From Methanosuratincolales archaeon (GTDB lineage Archaea; Thermoproteota; Methanomethylicia; Methanomethylicales; Methanomethylicaceae): a DNA stretch of 36,732 nt. Location: positions 1 to 36,732 of the forward strand of contig JACIVQ010000010.1 of the NCBI GenBank assembly GCA_014361445.1. Reading direction: 5' to 3'. Every line of letters starts with the position of its first letter. Within the stretch, counting starts at the first letter, position 1. This document shows positions 1-9,613 of the stretch, piece after piece. Both the position numbers and the translations under genes were made by a program. The notes beneath the pieces are model-generated. The model made no database searches. It had not been told where the DNA came from and saw only the letters and a list, made by a program, of their open reading frames with translations.

Positions 1-899
1 ATCTGAATAAAGATGCAATTCCTATTATATTGAGAAATGTAAAACTGAATGGCTTGGAGGAAAAAGTCGAGGTTGAGCACAGAGATGCCAACCTACTCTT
101 AGCAACGCACTCTGAGCCTGGGAAAAGGTTTGACTTCATAGATCTTGATCCTTTTGGGACCCCAGTTCAGTTTCTCGACTCTGCGATCAGGGCTATAAAG
201 AATGGGGGCATCATTGCCCTCACCGCGACTGATACTGCTCCCTTATGCGGGGTCTACATGAAGCCCTGCCTCAGGAAATACGGTGCCCTTCCATTGAGAG
301 GTGAATTTTGCCATGAGGTCGGTCTCAGGATTCTGATCGGCTCTACTGTCTATGCCTCCATAAAAGAGGACTTCGGGGTAATGGTATTGCTATCTTACAG
401 TGTGGATCATTACTTCAGGGCTTACCTTCAGCTGGAGCTGGGCGCCAAAAAAGCGGACGCATCAGCCTCTTTGTTGGGATACATTTTTTACTGTCCGAGT
501 TGTAGCTGGAGGGGTACAGCACCATTGAGCGGGGAAATGATTTCATCTTGTCCTTTATGCCAAAAACCTCTCAAGAGGGCTGGACCGCTCTGGTGTGGTC
601 CCCTCGGAGATAAGCGATTTATGCAATCTATCTTGGAACAAGATCTATCATCAATGAATACTAAAAAGCGGATTGAAAAGATGCTCCACCTCCTGATCGA
701 CGAATCTGAGATGCCCCCCACCTACTACTCTGTGGACTCTCTCTCGAGCAAAATAAAGCGCGGACCTCCTCCAGTATCATTAATCATACAAAGGCTTAGG
801 GAAAGAGGATATGTTGCCTCTCCTACACATTTCAACCCAAAAGCCTTCAAAACTAATGCCCCGTTGGGCATAATAATGGAGACTATTAAAGAGGCTTAA
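1..899 (+). CDS. trm1: tRNA (guanine-N2,N2)-dimethyltransferase Trm1, C-terminal part (5' end outside window)
   Basis: Frame is open from the window edge (LNKDAIPIILRNVKLNGLEEKVEVEHRDAN...FDFIDLDPFGTPVQFLDSAIRAIKNGGIIALTATDTAPLCG); DPFGTP and the C-x2-C zinc-finger-like motifs (CPSCSWRG...CPLC) are typical of Trm1. Confidence 0.93.
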   Translation, partial: LNKDAIPIILRNVKLNGLEEKVEVEHRDANLLLATHSEPGKRFDFIDLDPFGTPVQFLDSAIRAIKNGGIIALTATDTAPLCGVYMKPCLRKYGALPLRGEFCHEVGLRILIGSTVYASIKEDFGVMVLLSYSVDHYFRAYLQLELGAKKADASASLLGYIFYCPSCSWRGTAPLSGEMISSCPLCQKPLKRAGPLWCGPLGDKRFMQSILEQDLSSMNTKKRIEKMLHLLIDESEMPPTYYSVDSLSSKIKRGPPPVSLIIQRLRERGYVASPTHFNPKAFKTNAPLGIIMETIKEA

Positions 900-1131
900 T
901 CTTTTTCCAACAATTAATAAAAAAGTTTACATAAGGGTGACAGAGAACCCATCAATAACAATATTAAAGTTATACATACATGCATGCTAAAAAATTCTAC
1001 AAAATTCTAATTGTATCATCTTGTGAATCTTGTAAGTGTAAAGCCACAGTTCGCTTGGGAGGAGTCGCCGCCCATTAACCGCTAATATATTTTCGCCCTC
1101 CCTCTTCCCTTTAAAAATCCATCAGAGTATA

Positions 1132-1401
1132 ATGTCTCAGAGGGACCGCGGCAATGATCGGCAACCAAAACCGACACCAAGAGACGCCCAGCCCGCCCCG
1201 CCGTGCCTGGCAGAGGACATCTACGACTTGGAGGTCACTCACTTCGATAACCCGAACAACAGGAAGTGCTACAAGGCGATGAAGGAAAGGAATGCGTCCG
1301 CCAGCACAGTATTCGACTTCCTCTTCGACATTCTGGAGGGGGCGGCACCACATAAACAGGATGACAATCCCTTGAAGCACTTCATACCGATCCCCCTTTA
1401 A
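1132..1401 (+). CDS. hypothetical protein, 89 aa, proline-rich N-terminus
   Basis: ATG ORF between trm1 and the TnpB remnant with an AT-rich TAATATAT element about 45 nt upstream; no family recognised. Confidence 0.4.
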   Translation: MSQRDRGNDRQPKPTPRDAQPAPPCLAEDIYDLEVTHFDNPNNRKCYKAMKERNASASTVFDFLFDILEGAAPHKQDDNPLKHFIPIPL

Positions 1402-1407
1402 ATTGTG

Positions 1408-1664
1408 AACGGGAAATCCCACATGCTTTAGCGGTGGAATGAGAGCGAACATTTATATCATCCCTTTTTTTATCATTATTTTTTGCGTAGGCATGGGGCA
1501 GGCCGAAGTTACGCCTGTGGAGACCGAGACCTCCGTAACCCACCTTCCACACGGGCTCTGCTGAAACGGCCTCATCTGCCGAGGCCTCCGCTGTGGGTGC
1601 GTGGGGATCGAGTCTGGTCGTGGAAGCAGGAAGCCCACGGGCTTCATCCGTGGGTAGCTCACAA
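1408..1664 (+). mobile_element. degenerate IS200/IS605 (IS1341/TnpB-type) element remnant: left-end-like hairpin, TnpB C-terminal tail, right-end hairpin
   Basis: Left-end-like CCCACATGCTTTAGCGGTGGAATGAGAGCGA (1418-1446) resembles 6176-6207. A TnpB-like C-tail GQAEVTPVETETSVTHLPH then (other frame) ...SSLVVEAGSPRASSVGSSQ follows. The right-end hairpin is CCCACGG/CCGTGGG (1634-1640/1648-1654), followed by TAGCTCACAA (1655-1664). Confidence 0.68.
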
Positions 1665-1690
1665 ATTCCCCAGAGCCAGTGCACATGATT
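1490..1690 (+). pseudogene. TnpB C-terminal fragment, frameshifted
   Basis: AEVTPVETETS and VEAGSPRASSVGSS are characteristic of TnpB C-terminal tails; the two pieces are in different frames, joined near 1550, and no catalytic core lies upstream. Confidence 0.6.
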
Positions 1691-1761
1691 TCAACACAAA
1701 AGCAGACAATGCCTGATTCTATCAAATGTAAACAAAAGAAATCAAAAATTAACCAAAGGTA

Positions 1762-1769
1762 TTTATAAA
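1762..1769 (+). promoter_or_regulatory. TATA box for S-layer gene
   Basis: ACCAAAGGTATTTATAAAG: archaeal BRE/TATA-like, about 58 nt upstream of the ATG; SD-like AAGGTGA follows near 1811-1817. Confidence 0.6.
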
Positions 1770-1826
1770 GATTTCATGATACCTCTTCAACAGGCCTACC
1801 CAATAGGCTAAAAGGTGAAATAAAAT

Positions 1827-4800
1827 ATGAAAAAAATATTGAGTACTCTATTATTAGCGACCCTAGTGCTCTCAGTTGTAGCAGTAGCAGGCGTAGTACC
1901 AGTGCACGCTGCTTTTGAGGGGCAACTCAAAACCTCTGCTGAAGCTCAAGGCAACAAGATTTACCTAAACCAGTCCATCGAGATCAGGGTTGTAGACAAC
2001 GACCTAAATTTAAACGTTAGCGATTTCGATTCTGCATCAATAACAATTGATCTACTCGATGCGAACGGAGAAGTAAACGAGACTATTCCGGCATATTTAA
2101 ACGAGACTTTCCCGAACAGCGGCGAGTTCGTAGGTTATCTAATTGTCAACAGCTCTGTAGATATGGAAACCCACACTGAAAATATTCGTGATACTGCTAC
2201 TAATATTACTATATCGGTTCTACCTGGTACTGGCACATATAACGCTACTGTATTCAATTCATCTTTCGTAAAAGAAGGTTGGACGTTCGTGATAACCTAC
2301 CCCGAGGCTGGATCTACTCCAAAGAGCGTCACTCTGACGTATGCTCCTTCATATGACCCTACAAGCGCGGACATCTCTCTAGACAGATCTGGCGACCCTA
2401 TAGTCTACCCATTCGACCACGCATCTATCAAAATGACCGTTAAAGATTATGATCTAAACAAAGATCCGACAGCAAGAGACCGACCTCAAATTCGCATTAA
2501 TATGACGGATTATTCGAATCTTTTGATTAACGACTCGGCGGTGCTAGAATTCGTCGAAACCGGCATAAACACTGGCATATTCGAATGTACGATCGAATAT
2601 AATAACGCTACAACAGACTCATCTAATTTAATATTGGAACTCGAAAACCCCGGCACAGGAGTACCGATAGAGATCCTCTATAATGACAGTAAAAACAACC
2701 CATCTGTGTTCATTCAATTCGCTAAATTCACGCGGGCTTTGGACGTCCCCTCCACATTTACGACCTCTGGCGACTTACTTATAAGGATCCAGGACAACAA
2801 CGAGAACGTGAGGAGCTGGGCTCCCGATTATATAACCGGCTTCGTTAATGTAAGCGTGGGCGGCGACTACGAGGTCATATTAGGAGGGAACTTCACCGAG
2901 ACAGGCGCGGATACGGGCATATTCGAGTATACCCTACGAGTCACCATAGGGGATCACGAAATAAACAGTACAAAGCTAGAGTTTAACGCCGCATCCTTTA
3001 GTGAAACTGTAAATGTTCTGTATAAGGACAGCGCAGGTAATACGTTGGCAAGCACACAGACGAAGCTCTCTACGACGGCAGCCAGTTTGACATCCGATAA
3101 GACCATTTACAAGCCCACGGAGACGGTCACCCTGACACTCACAGCGCCAGACTTGAATGTCGACACTGGATACAACATATACCCAATATCGGTCAGTACG
3201 AACCAACTGATTAAGGAGATACAGGCAGATTTGGATAATGTGAAGGTCGGCAACTTCTCTGTTAAGGTCAACGACGATTACGCAAATGCTACGGGTGGGT
3301 TGACGCTGAACTTTGTGGAGGACGGGACAAACACCGGTATATTCAAGGCATCCCTCCCGCTCGATAAAGTAAAGACAACGTCGGGCGAGGACCTCTCCGA
3401 CGGTGATACTGTTAAGGTCATATGGTACGACCTCATAAACAACGAGGAATCCTCGGTAACATTGACGATCGGAGTGCCTGCCTCGGAAGTCTCAATGGAC
3501 AGGAGCGTTTACCCTGCCCCCAAGGATGGCGATGTAAAGATAAAGATAACCGTCTATGACCCAGACGAAGGTTCATCCTCAACTGTAGACACATTATCCG
3601 ACGCGATCAACATCACGGTCTACTACGCCAATGGGACAATGGTGCCTACTCTAACTGAGTTAAAAGATCTGACCGAGACCGGTCCTGCGAGCTATACCTT
3701 CACATACACCTACACACTTCAATCAACTACAACAACACAGTCGCCCGCGCTCATAGGTGGGACTATCAAGGTAATGTACTCTGATCCCAGTGCAAATAAG
3801 TTGGTCAATGCCACAGCGACGATCTCTAACACGGACGCCTCCATAACAGCCAACGTGACCTCTGCGACCGCTGGCACTGCCATAAAGTTCACTATAAATG
3901 ACCCGGACGCCAACAGGGACGGGACCACCGCTGAGGATTTAGATGCTACTGTTGAATACACGCCGGCCGGGGCGAAATCTGCAACTACAACAACATGGAC
4001 CTTCAAAGAGACAGACAAGTCCACAGGGGTCTTCGAGTACACTATAACACTCCAGAAGGACTTTAAGGTTGAGCCTGGCACAACCATAAAGGTGACCCAC
4101 GTAGACACAACGCCGTCGTTCGTCACAAACCAGATGGCGTCATACACCAACCAGTCCTACTCATGCACTGTCAGTGTGCCGAGCTACACAGGATCGATCA
4201 CCACAGACAAGGACGAATACGGCCCATTCACAAAGATAACGATCCGCGTTACCGACCCTGACCTCAACACAGACATAACCGCCAAGGACCCGGTTGATAT
4301 ATCCTACAAGAAGTCAGGTGTAGTCGGAACATTCACAGTAACACTCACTGAGACCGGCGTCAACACCGGTGTGTTTGAAGGAACTGTTGACACCACAGAA
4401 GATGACATTGGCAGGAGCATTCAGTTCTTCTACTTAGACAATAAAGACGCAAGTGGCAACTCTGTGTACGTATCAAAGACCGTCACTGTCGCAGCCAAGA
4501 CGGGCAGCATAGAGTTCGACAAGAGCTACTACAATGTAGGCGACCTTGCCACTATCACAATAAAGGACAATGACATGAACAGCGTCTCTACAACTAGACA
4601 ACAGATCAACGTGGTTGTAACCTCAACGTCAGATCCCATCGGAACTACTGTAGTAGCGACCGAGACAGACGTCAACACCGGGGTATTCACGGTAACGATA
4701 CAGATATCCTCATCCCCCGCAGAGGCAGGGAAGATCTACGCCAAGGTAGGTGACACCCTCTACGCAGAGTACGAAGATACGTACCCGTCGACCTACACCT

Positions 4801-5204
4801 CCGCCAACAAAACCGCCCAGGTAGTGAAGACAAGCGCTGTTGTGGGCGTACCGGTCGAGAGGCCCGTACCAGCCAGCGAACAGAAGTTCGTAGACCCCAA
4901 CACAGGTGCAGAGAAGACCGAAGGAAAGGTCAATGAGGCCATCGGACTCCAGGCCACCGTTAAGAACGTCGATGCCGTATCAAAGACCTTCACTGCCATA
5001 TTCAAGGTGAAGGACTCTGCCGGAGTGACCATATTCATAAGCTGGATCACCGGCACGCTAGCGCCAGGGCAGGAACTCACGCCAGGCGTCTCATGGACAC
5101 CTTCCGCAGCTGGTACGTACACGGTTGAGGTACTCGTAGTCAAGACCTTAGCAGAGCCAACACCGTATTCAGACATACAGACGAAGGCGCTGACAGTGAC
5201 TTAG
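1827..5204 (+). CDS. large secreted S-layer-like protein (1125 aa) with tandem DxDxN / ETGxNTGxFE domains
   Basis: Signal peptide MKKILSTLLLATLVLSVVAVAGVVPVHA; about eight repeated units; rich in S/T/N and N-glycosylation sequons; no C-terminal TM segment. Confidence 0.8.
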   Translation: MKKILSTLLLATLVLSVVAVAGVVPVHAAFEGQLKTSAEAQGNKIYLNQSIEIRVVDNDLNLNVSDFDSASITIDLLDANGEVNETIPAYLNETFPNSGEFVGYLIVNSSVDMETHTENIRDTATNITISVLPGTGTYNATVFNSSFVKEGWTFVITYPEAGSTPKSVTLTYAPSYDPTSADISLDRSGDPIVYPFDHASIKMTVKDYDLNKDPTARDRPQIRINMTDYSNLLINDSAVLEFVETGINTGIFECTIEYNNATTDSSNLILELENPGTGVPIEILYNDSKNNPSVFIQFAKFTRALDVPSTFTTSGDLLIRIQDNNENVRSWAPDYITGFVNVSVGGDYEVILGGNFTETGADTGIFEYTLRVTIGDHEINSTKLEFNAASFSETVNVLYKDSAGNTLASTQTKLSTTAASLTSDKTIYKPTETVTLTLTAPDLNVDTGYNIYPISVSTNQLIKEIQADLDNVKVGNFSVKVNDDYANATGGLTLNFVEDGTNTGIFKASLPLDKVKTTSGEDLSDGDTVKVIWYDLINNEESSVTLTIGVPASEVSMDRSVYPAPKDGDVKIKITVYDPDEGSSSTVDTLSDAINITVYYANGTMVPTLTELKDLTETGPASYTFTYTYTLQSTTTTQSPALIGGTIKVMYSDPSANKLVNATATISNTDASITANVTSATAGTAIKFTINDPDANRDGTTAEDLDATVEYTPAGAKSATTTTWTFKETDKSTGVFEYTITLQKDFKVEPGTTIKVTHVDTTPSFVTNQMASYTNQSYSCTVSVPSYTGSITTDKDEYGPFTKITIRVTDPDLNTDITAKDPVDISYKKSGVVGTFTVTLTETGVNTGVFEGTVDTTEDDIGRSIQFFYLDNKDASGNSVYVSKTVTVAAKTGSIEFDKSYYNVGDLATITIKDNDMNSVSTTRQQINVVVTSTSDPIGTTVVATETDVNTGVFTVTIQISSSPAEAGKIYAKVGDTLYAEYEDTYPSTYTSANKTAQVVKTSAVVGVPVERPVPASEQKFVDPNTGAEKTEGKVNEAIGLQATVKNVDAVSKTFTAIFKVKDSAGVTIFISWITGTLAPGQELTPGVSWTPSAAGTYTVEVLVVKTLAEPTPYSDIQTKALTVT

Positions 5205-5217
5205 AGGGTGACAAGCG

Positions 5218-6114
5218 ATGCAGACAAGGACAATAACCCTCTTACCTTCCTTTTTCTTGGTACTGTGCCTCCTAGCTGCACCGGTAATGGCTGCTACATT
5301 AACGGTCACAACCGATGCAGATACATACTCTCCTGGTGATACGATCTCTGTCTCTGGGACCGCAGTGGCAAACACAGACGTCACCATACAGCTCCTCAAC
5401 CCCAACGGGCAGCTCGTCGACATAACGTACGTGAGGTCGGGCTCGGACGGCTCGTACTCTACCTCATTCAAGACCCCCTCTACTATGCCCACTGGTCAGT
5501 GGGTACTCGGCACATACACAGTCAAGGCGTTCATGGGTACCCAGACCGCCACCAAGACTATAACCATCCAGCAGAAGATCGCCGTGACCGGTAAGGTCGT
5601 GGACTCTGCTGGTGAAGGAGTCGCTGGTGCAACGGTCACTGTGGGTACCGCCTCAGGCACAACAGGTGCAGACGGCTCCTTCACGGTATCCCTCTCAGCA
5701 GAGGGCACCTACACGTTGAAGGTGACAAAGACTGGGTACTACACATACACAGAGACTGTGACCGCATCCTTGGGGACCAACGATGTTGGCACCATTCAAC
5801 TGACGAGCCTTGAGGACAAGATCGCTGCACTTGAGAGCGAAGTCGGCAATCTGACCGAATCCCTAGAGACTGCCCAAAGCGATATAGCATCCCTAAAGAC
5901 TCAGGTCCAGCAACTCCAAGCTATTACAACCACGGTCACACAACTCCAGAGCACGGCAAATTCACTACAGTCTAGCGTGAACTCGTTGCAGTCTAGCGTG
6001 AACGCACTGCAAGCTACAGTGGCACAACTCCCGGCGTTCTACGCGCTCGCATTCATCGGCATAATAATCGCCGTAATCGCTGTCATCCTTGTATACAGAA
6101 AAATAGCCAAGTGA
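5218..6114 (+). CDS. membrane-anchored cell-surface protein, SlaB-like stalk: beta-sandwich domains, coiled coil, C-terminal TM
   Basis: N-terminal signal peptide; Ig-like domain and a carboxypeptidase-regulatory-like domain (GKVVDSAGEGVAGATVTVGTASGTTGADGSFTVSLSAEGTYTLKVTKTGY); heptads LQSSVNSLQSSVNALQ; C-terminal FYALAFIGIIIAVIAVILVYRKIAK. Confidence 0.75.
   Translation: MQTRTITLLPSFFLVLCLLAAPVMAATLTVTTDADTYSPGDTISVSGTAVANTDVTIQLLNPNGQLVDITYVRSGSDGSYSTSFKTPSTMPTGQWVLGTYTVKAFMGTQTATKTITIQQKIAVTGKVVDSAGEGVAGATVTVGTASGTTGADGSFTVSLSAEGTYTLKVTKTGYYTYTETVTASLGTNDVGTIQLTSLEDKIAALESEVGNLTESLETAQSDIASLKTQVQQLQAITTTVTQLQSTANSLQSSVNSLQSSVNALQATVAQLPAFYALAFIGIIIAVIAVILVYRKIAK
5970..6011 (+). repeat. 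21-bp tandem repeat encoding heptad-type coiled coil (LQSSVNS/LQSSVNA)
   Basis: TCTAGCGTGAACTCGTTGCAG / TCTAGCGTGAACGCACTGCAA. Confidence 0.7.
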
Positions 6115-6129
6115 ATAAAACCGTAACTT

Positions 6130-6145
6130 ACCCTCTTTTTTTATT
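6130..6145 (+). terminator. T-rich archaeal terminator after the cell-surface protein gene
   Basis: CCCTCTTTTTTTATTTTG about 16 nt after the stop codon. Confidence 0.5.
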
Positions 6146-6164
6146 TTGAGTTTTATAAAGCGAG

Positions 6165-6428
6165 TGCCCAGAAAACCTAGAGCTTCAGCTCTGGGATGAA
6201 TGGGCGATTAAATATTTCAGTTTTGAAGTTAAAGTTGAGGATGTTCCGATGACTGATGAAGCCATGTTGGCTGAGGTTTAATGTAGGAATTAGCCCATGC
6301 CTTAACGGGAGGTATGGGATAGCGGGTGTGTGAGCCCCGCGAACCAGCAGATGAGGCAAGAACGCAACGGCGTAAAGCATACTCCAAACGCTGGAAACTC
6401 CCGATTTTAATCGTGATGTAGCTCACAA
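6165..6428 (+). mobile_element. degenerate mini-element with IS200/IS605-like ends (possible TnpB-derived remnant)
   Basis: Nested left hairpin: GCCCA(6166-6170)...TGGGC(6201-6205) enclosing CCTAGAGC TTCA GCTCTGGG. Right hairpin CGATT/AATCG (6402-6413) is followed by TAGCTCACAA (6419-6428), identical to the ends of the other two elements. Confidence 0.5.
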
Positions 6429-6678
6429 CGATCCTTTCCACCTCAGCCTTTATGAAAGGTTGGAGCTTTTCAGTATTTGGTACCTGCTCGCTGCGCCGCA
6501 CGAGTCTCAAAGAGCGCTAATGGTTTCTCGTATCCTTTTAATAGGTCATTTGGCAAGGGGGTGGGGCGTTTCCAGGTCTCTCTGAAGGTCCTCCGCCTCG
6601 TGTAGCATCCCTTGGGCGCCTTCATCCTGTCCCAAAGCTCTCAGAATGGCGGCGTTGCTCTGATAAAGCAGGGCGATC

Positions 6679-6864
6679 CTATCTAGTACCATGAACTCTG
6701 CCGAGGAGTAGGCTCTGAACCTGAAGAAAGCCTTCTATCTCCTCTAATAGGCGAGGCTTTCTTATCCCTGTATTCTCTTCAAGGAACTCCCTTATCACGG
6801 CGCTGAGCGTGGTGTCCCTCTCTCTACAGTACGCATGGGCTTGCTCAAGGAGGCTCTTCGGCAA
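6679..6864 (-). CDS. ribbon-helix-helix / VapB-like DNA-binding protein (possibly truncated or frameshifted)
   Basis: LPKSLLEQAHAYCRERDTTLSAVIREFLEENTG is RHH antitoxin-like; adjacent frame continues ...FRAYSSAEFMVLDRIALLYQSNAAILRALGQDEG. Confidence 0.5.
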   Translation of the reverse strand: MPKSLLEQAHAYCRERDTTLSAVIREFLEENTGIRKPRLLEEIEGFLQVQSLLLGRVHGTR

Positions 6865-7039
6865 CTTAAAGTTTGAGACGACCTTTTCCTCCTTTCATCT
6901 TTTTCCAGCCCTTACTATGGGATCTTTTCAAGAATCTTTCCTTTCAAATTCCCTACAATACCATATTTAGGAGGAGCAATTAACAATGCGTAGCAAACTT
7001 TTTATCTTACGCTTTATTCAGTAGTTTGGATGTGATGTT

Positions 7040-7198
7040 ATGCCATCGCATGGTTCTCTCACAAAGGCTGGAAAAGTAAGATCTCAGACTCCAAAGGTTC
7101 CTGCTAAAGAACGAAAGGGTCTAAGGCCTCTTCATAGGAACAGGAAAAACTACATCAAGAGAGTCCTGTACGCTCCTTCAGAGACTGGCAGAGCATAA
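7040..7198 (+). CDS. rps30e: 30S ribosomal protein eS30 (52 aa)
   Basis: ATG at 7040: [68 protein letters not shown] is the eS30 signature. Absent from the supplied ORF track (shorter than 60 aa). Confidence 0.92.
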
Positions 7199-7230
7199 AA
7201 ATCTGCTACACCCCATTTTTATGAGAAACG

Positions 7231-7270
7231 CCAGAAAACCCACGGGCTTACAGCCTTGGGTAGCTCACAA
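7231..7270 (+). mobile_element. solo IS200/IS605-like right-end hairpin
   Basis: CCAGAAAACCCACGGGCTTACAGCCTTGGGTAGCTCACAA shares CCCACGGGCTT...GGGTAGCTCACAA with 1634-1664. Confidence 0.5.
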
Positions 7271-7419
7271 TTAGCGTAGTAATAAGGTTTTAATCATTAA
7301 AAACCACCCTCCATTTTTAGTCTACATGGTCTCAAGGAAATGGTTAACTTTAAATACAACTTTTATTTCTGTGCAAAATTGTAGAATTTCCAATATGCGA
7401 GGAGGATCTCGAAACAAAA

Positions 7420-7797
7420 GTGATCACTGCATGTGTGGATAAAGAAAAGCAAATCGTTGGCAAACATGTGTACGGAAACCTTTACGGATGCGACCCGAAA
7501 CTCATCGACGATGAATCGTTTCTTAAGAGTATTGTTATAGAGGCTGCGAAACTTGCAAGAATGACCATCTGGGACACAAAAACTTGGAAATTCGGGGGCG
7601 AAAAAGGAGGCGTTTCCGTGATGGCTCTTGTTTTGGAGAGCCATATCGCGATTCACACTTGGAGCGAACTTGGCTACGCAACCGTCGATGTCTTCACTTG
7701 CGGGGCAAAAAGCGATCCCGAGCTTGCCTTTGATTATATCGCCTCAAAACTTAATCCAAAGACCCTCGTAAAACACTTTGCAGATCGATCAAGCTAA
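7420..7797 (+). CDS. speD: S-adenosylmethionine decarboxylase / SpeD-family pyruvoyl decarboxylase proenzyme
   Basis: VGKHVYGNLYGCD, and LVLESHIAIHTWSELGYATVDVFTCG with the E-S autoprocessing site. GTG start as listed, but the frame is open further upstream. Confidence 0.9.
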   Translation: MITACVDKEKQIVGKHVYGNLYGCDPKLIDDESFLKSIVIEAAKLARMTIWDTKTWKFGGEKGGVSVMALVLESHIAIHTWSELGYATVDVFTCGAKSDPELAFDYIASKLNPKTLVKHFADRSS

Positions 7798-7888
7798 CCA
7801 TCCCTAGTATTTTTTGTTTTTTATCCGATGTTGGAATTGGTGCCTGCAACTTAATGCTTAAAAATTCATTAAACTAAAAAGAGATCTT

Positions 7889-8176
7889 ATGATTGAGATC
7901 TCCCAAATAGAAAATTTAAATGCGATAGGCATAAAAGTGTCCATGCCAGGGGCTCCTCCCCTAATCCTCATAAGAGGGACAAGAGGGGCCCTCTTTTGCG
8001 GTTATTTGAACACCGAGGTTGCGGAGAGGTTAGGACTAGCAGCTGCGATCGTAGGCGGTGTAAAGAACTTTGAGGAGATGTTGGAGAAGCCCGTAACGTA
8101 TTCCACCAGAAAGGCTATTGAACTTGGAGTAAAACCTGGCATGAGTGGTAGAGATGCCCTCAATTTGCTAATATGA
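7889..8176 (+). CDS. DUF1805 family protein
   Basis: [64 protein letters not shown]. Confidence 0.75.
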
Positions 8177-9613
8177 CCTTGCCACCCTAATGATCATGTT
8201 AGCTTTGGACCCGCAGTTTACACACAAACCTTCTGGGCCGCTCGCATCACCATATGGCCATCCAAGTACTCTTGCATCCAACTTCGTCTCAAGATCTTGC
8301 CCACATCCAGTATTACCGCACCAATGCAGCTCGACTATCCCTCCCTGAGTCTCGAGCACTTTCTTTGCGTCTTCAAGATTCTCCTTCCTCACGACGCGCT
8401 CATCCAGCCATTGTTTTGCCCTCGCCTTTAGATCTAAATCGATCCTCTCGAGGAGTTTTCTCGTCTCTTCCACCAATCTCGTGCGCTCAACTGTAAGCTT
8501 CTCCAATGAATCCCTTCTGACTAAGACCGCTGTCCCTTTGTCCAAGTCCCTCGGTCCCAACTCAACTCTGACCGGTGCCCCCTTGAGCTCCCACGTGAAG
8601 TATTTGCTGCCAGGGGTCTCTTCTTTTCTATCATCCAATTTAACTCTAAGTCCTTCTTTCTCGAGCTCACCCAAAATTTCCCTGCAAGCGCTCAGAATGT
8701 CCTCCTCCTTTCCTTTGTAAACTATCGGAATTACCACAATTTGAACAGGAGCGACTCTGCTCGGCAAAACAAGCCCGTGATCGTCGCCATGCACCGAGAT
8801 GAGTGCCGCTATCACCCTCTCTGAGATTCCGTAGCATGTTTGCCATACGTACTCATAATTACCGTCTGCCTTCATGTACTTTATATCGAAGGCCTTTGAG
8901 AATCCCTGTCCCAAGAAATGAACTGTTCCGATCTGTAGGACTTTTCCATCTGGCATTATTGTATCAAAGGCTACAGAGTACTCTGCGCCAGGAAACTTGT
9001 CCCAGTCAGGTCTCACTGACTTAACGTAAGGTATCCCTAGTCTCTCGAATATTCTGCTGTAAATCTCTACGCCCTCCCTGACCTGCTCCTCCGCCTCCTC
9101 TCTTGTCGCATGTGCGGTATGCGCCTCTTTGAAGGTACTGACTTCCCTTACCCTTATCATGGGTTTTGTGGCCTTTGTCTCATATCTGAAGACGCTGACT
9201 ATCTGAAATATCTTCACCGGAAGATCTGAGTACGCATTTATCCAAAGCTGAAACATGGGGTATATGGCGGTCTCACTCGTCGGTCTCAATGCTAGCTTTA
9301 CATCGAGGGGCGTGGTGCCACCGTGAGTCACCCAAAATACCTGCTCCTCAAAATTCCTGATATGCTCTGCCTCCTTCTTCAACATGTACTCCGGTATCAG
9401 GAGGGGGAAAAGGACTTCTTCATGCCCCCTCTTTAAGAGCTCCTCCCTGATTACCTCGACGACCTCCTTCCTTATCTTGAATCCGTAGGGCGTCCATACC
9501 CCCGTCCCTTTAACTGGGTATCGGATATCATAAATTGGGGCTTCAGAGATCACTCTGTGGAACCATTCTCCAAAATTTCCTGCCCACTGAGCCCTCTCAG
9601 GAGCCTTGCCCAT
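8168..9613 (-). CDS. proS: prolyl-tRNA synthetase (archaeal/eukaryotic type)
   Basis: [39 protein letters not shown]..., [20 protein letters not shown]-terminal zinc-binding-like region. Confidence 0.95.

Follow-up and report, generated by a model that had tools for sequence, protein, structure and literature searches.

The window (the whole stretch of DNA that was analysed, 36,732 nucleotides) contains a short element with a structured left end, a body, and a right-end hairpin (Table 1). A sequence-only reading of the same DNA had placed a TnpB tail and a right-end hairpin at positions 1408 to 1664; the element does lie there, but its true extent, given by aligned copies, is 1402 to 1662. 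The hairpin arms CCCACGG (1634 to 1640) and CCGTGGG (1648 to 1654) enclose the loop GCTTCAT, TAGCTCACAA follows directly at 1655 to 1664, and the flank, AAATTCCCCAGAGCCAGTGCAC, begins at 1663, all as that reading had reported. The element terminates in TAGCTCAC. The frameshifted C-terminal TnpB tail that it described was also recovered: the tnpB-like frame is split by a frameshift in the window copy and is open, as (M)GQAEVTPVEIRTSVTRLPHGFAETVSSAEASAVGAWGSSPVGEAGSPRL or close to it, in copies L003 and L006. The window copy lacks the initial C with which the other copies start and, with its first base missing, may be immobile. Of 34 copies, 25 have a hexamer similar to the TATA-like motif of the candidate promoter, its distance differing between copies (a raw count, uncorrected for chance). 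No relevant Rfam family matched positions 1 to 9000 of the window at E values of up to 1.

Table 1. Features of the window copy of the mini-element
Feature	Position	Strand	Basis
Target/TAM-like motif TTTAA abutting the left end	1397..1401	+	Motif before other copies, pARN4 relative, SisTnpB1 TAM
Whole mini-element, 261 bp	1402..1662	+	Aligned copies in own genome (G000); boundary inferred from pARN4 empty site
Left end, imperfect hairpin, common to resident tnpB elements	1405..1448	+	Matches tnpB elements of C24, C87, C7, and C8 over query 8-61
Candidate promoter, TATA-like TTTATAT	1452..1458	+	36 bases upstream of body
Putative scaffold resembling wRNA/reRNA: body derived from a tnpB tail, with the right-end hairpin	1488..1662	+	Cross-species covariation; covariance model match to tnpB 3' ends
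Right-end hairpin CCCACGG-GCTTCAT-CCGTGGG	1634..1654	+	Read from sequence; helix 7, five pairs changed on both sides
Putative guide (flanking DNA)	1663..1682	+	Analogous to the guide position in reRNA (PMC8612924); no second occurrence in own genome at <=3 mismatches

On one side of the element, an 89-amino-acid frame and its surroundings (1107 to 1345) match C45:36481-36723 at 81% and have no Pfam match. On the other side, positions 1827 to 5204 encode a large repeat protein that is apparently secreted and S-layer-like in appearance, with a Pfam match below threshold. Farther along, at 7236 to 7269, there is a lone right-end-like hairpin that ends in TAGCTCAC with the rest of the element absent, probably the remnant of another IS200/IS605 copy.

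About ten near-complete copies of the element (79% to 89% identity), together with several fragments, were identified in its own genome, and this recurrence indicates that the segment did not arise by chance. The flanks of these multiple copies are unrelated, and where the flanks were read, TTTAA(C) stands immediately before almost all copies. The same genome encodes three full-length tnpB genes, as well as a tnpB remnant that has both ends in common with the element. The element has ends found also on a tnpA/tnpB element in that genome, which is the mark of a non-autonomous member of the IS200/IS605 class, and in this class TnpA recognizes hairpins at the element ends. The lack of a nuclease in the first reading holds for the element itself but not for the genome, where several tnpB genes, including intact ones with similar right ends, were found. 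The locus is also not a mere tnpB remnant, having its own left end and recurring as a mini-element, and the suggested domesticated single locus proved to belong to a multicopy transposon family, with no sign of domestication found. A single decayed tnpB was rejected as an explanation, the same element with the same ~175-nt body having been found in other archaea.

The reRNA of ISDra2 consists of the 3' end of tnpB and the right end with ~16 nt of flanking DNA (PMC8612924). Covariance model R1, which was built from elements only and has the window itself as a training row, finds the 3' ends of zinc-finger-less tnpB genes in the genomes that carry these elements, with E values of 1e-8 to 1e-12 (L036, L037, L039, L110 to L115, L125, L147, L148, and L151). 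The body is homologous to these 3' ends, and their recovery by R1 is the main evidence suggesting that it corresponds to a TnpB wRNA/reRNA scaffold with an enlarged arm. Since the arm of the element is ~60 nt longer than that of the tnpB scaffolds, cross-recognition by TnpB is not assured. We consider it highly probable that the element is non-autonomous, is of the IS200/IS605 type, and has a body resembling a TnpB guide RNA. The original idea of an orphan wRNA/reRNA locus is supported at the sequence level by the homology to tnpB 3' ends, by conservation across archaea, and by the occurrence in the genome of intact TnpB genes whose right ends are similar.

The tnpB genes of the element's own genome belong to a group that lacks the usual zinc finger, PF07282 being absent in L037 and partial in L149, with PF01385 present. 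The motif GTSEGLxYxxPYRDxISA replaces the usual CxxC zinc finger in L037 (1839 to 2999), L149, and L110 to L114, and the candidate RuvC residues are kept. A zinc-finger-less tnpB of this kind, with a similar right end, is present in all genomes that harbor the close family, and in G059 this gene adjoins tnpA. This tnpB is found at >=70% identity in 8 of the 398 genomes of the phylum, among them all four close-family genomes (raw figures, uncorrected for kinship and insertion sequence load). No TnpA (Y1 transposase) was found in the element's own genome, the assembly of which is ~90% complete; a Y1 transposase is present in G059, G209, G089, and G007. The 1.8-Mb archaeal genome G209 alone contains 42 OrfB_IS605 matches.

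A tail search of these 398 genomes, with a 49-residue query taken from the open-frame copies and not from the window, located the element in four genomes and always as a short element: multicopy in its own genome, G059, and G209 and single copy in G089. A degraded copy is present in G007. Among the matches listed from a scan of an 85,000-genome collection were those to Brockarchaeota DRTY-1.bins.18, Terraquivivens tikiterensis, a Nitrososphaeria MAG, and one Methanophagales MAG; in other archaea, the element is multicopy in Brockarchaeota and occurs also in Nitrososphaeria, Wolframiiraptoraceae, and one member of the Methanophagales. Several of the listed genomes are MAGs, and for single copies contig misassignment is possible. 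The searches gave no complete tnpB gene that carries the long tail, be it in the 398 genomes (for tails close enough to be found by the tail search), among the listed matches of the larger scan, or in viral contigs.

More remote relatives were identified with R1, which gave matches in 48 of the 398 genomes, both at tnpB 3' ends and as stand-alone copies. The stand-alone matches include multicopy ones in 2- to 3-Mb genomes of one family. One such element is 88% to 90% identical to sequences in Sulfolobus islandicus plasmids pHVE14 and pARN4 and in Acidianus tailed spindle virus (ATSV), which suggests that this family lies in or near the Sulfolobales. Compared with pARN3, pARN4 has exactly 321 extra bases after TTTTAA with no target duplication, and pYN01 and pB12E5 are likewise uninterrupted at this site. 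The relative is inserted cleanly and on the 3' side of a short fixed motif; in the element's own family, the motif precedes the copies. In the virus (L250, 2484 to 2656), the stand-alone guide-RNA-like body overlaps a short annotated gene on the opposite strand. SMN1 is described as a 320-bp non-autonomous Sulfolobus element said to depend on ISC1733 (PMC3718332), and SMN2 is described as likewise non-autonomous (PMC3839810); according to the same passages, SMN elements are mobilized by an IS200-type or ISC1733 transposase, and these passages make no mention of a guide RNA (PMC3718332, PMC3839810). The pARN4 relative resembles them in its 321-bp length and its setting on S. islandicus plasmids and in ATSV, and it matches R1. 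Judged by size and setting, SMN1 is probably a known relative.

Three rival readings of the body have to be weighed. The element could be an ordinary MITE, i.e., an internal-deletion derivative of a tnpB element that is moved by TnpA in trans and carries its body as a functionless passenger. This is unlikely, although it is the most probable of the three: the ends match those of the resident tnpB elements, some copies are fragmentary, the frame is broken in several, and the TATA-like motif and its distance are variable, but among the copies of the element's own genome, the body changes more slowly than any other segment (mismatches per site, 0.093 in the arm, 0.128 in the right end, 0.181 in the left end, and 0.344 in the linker), and its conservation, paired changes included, extends to distant archaea. 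The paired changes were scored in a cross-species alignment of 20 rows, each matched letter for letter to its locus, on a structure taken from the window's own fold. In this alignment, 94.5% of the cells are paired and 12 pairs have changed on both sides; the cells with both-side changes number 60, versus 25.5 in shuffles (0/500), with the rows clustered by species and the shuffles blind to relatedness. Among the copies of the element's own genome alone, both-side changes are weakly in excess (6 versus 3.3; 120/2000). The stability of the single-sequence fold is no better than that of shuffles (z 0.00), and on this ground folding energy was rejected as sole evidence of structure. The covariation argues for a conserved RNA secondary structure across species and, weakly, within the element's own genome.

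Alternatively, the conservation might stem from recent interspecies transfer and exchange of ends with resident elements, with no selection on the RNA. The location of relatives on plasmids and in a virus and the very homogeneous copies of G059 would agree with such a history, as would the left linkers, which differ sharply between copies in a way that could be due partly to recombination. We nevertheless regard it as improbable, since the both-side changes keep the pairs between species and since the Sulfolobales-like relatives are strongly diverged and have retained the fold. It is very improbable that the body acts as a single-stranded DNA structure in transposition and not as RNA: it does sit between the end hairpins that TnpA recognizes, but the ISDra2/IS608 model needs only the end hairpins, and the position and skeleton of the body match those of wRNA.

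SisTnpB1 cuts beside TTTAA, its tested TAM (PMC10640517), and TnpB has been proposed to cut the donor joint, with repair then restoring the element (PMC8612924). By analogy, the empty site of the window copy would be TTTAA followed by the flank from 1663. A search for such a site in the genus of the window copy found trm1 and the downstream stretch on different contigs. The guide had been expected directly after the element end, and the putative guide is placed there by analogy. The element's own genome has no target elsewhere at <=3 mismatches, and none of five 16-base viral matches to the guide is preceded by TTTAA. The hairpin is conserved, but the guide is whatever flanks each copy and is unique in the genome. 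The sequence-only reading had counted lack of a transcript, of a matching TnpB, and of hairpin or guide conservation against a guide-RNA locus; two of these three do not apply, because a matching TnpB is present and the hairpin is conserved.

We favor, at a probability of roughly 0.55, a non-autonomous IS200/IS605 element that is moved by TnpA in trans and has retained a guide RNA used by a resident TnpB. In this model, the element would travel as single-stranded DNA, by means of TnpA supplied elsewhere, to a position 3' of TTTAA. It may be transcribed from the candidate promoter into a scaffold ending in 16 to 20 nt of flanking DNA, and a resident zinc-finger-less TnpB may load this RNA in trans. 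The nuclease would then cut the empty site left by excision, and repair from the sister copy would restore the element, a function for which the RNA may be under selection. The conservation of the RNA part across archaea suggests that the element still borrows TnpB, and we see roughly an even chance that its RNA still functions in trans.

The element resembles the TnpB wRNA/reRNA systems of ISDra2 and SisTnpB1 in combining a tnpB 3' end with the right end, a flank as guide, and a TAM at the left border; it differs in having no tnpB and an enlarged arm and in being known from sequence alone. Guide-RNA loci without their own nuclease gene are also known among the stand-alone wRNAs of IscB (HEARO), which are similar in the missing nuclease gene but belong to IscB and not to TnpB. 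The PATEs of haloarchaea, small palindrome-associated elements linked to IS200/IS605, are comparable by description. MITEs carrying TnpB guides were not found in a literature search that covered few subscription journals.

More tentatively, with confidence somewhat short of even, we propose that guide-RNA-only transposons in at least two archaeal phyla, in plasmids, and in a virus persist by guiding the TnpB of another transposon and are thus parasites of an RNA-guided nuclease. If this is true, an RNA-guided nuclease has an RNA part that can travel and be selected without its protein partner. It would also offer a direct way to test what TnpB guide RNAs are for: retention of the elements only where an active matching TnpB is present would mean that TnpB serves transposon retention in trans. 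Such a split between guide and nuclease is a step that has been proposed on the way to CRISPR-Cas12.
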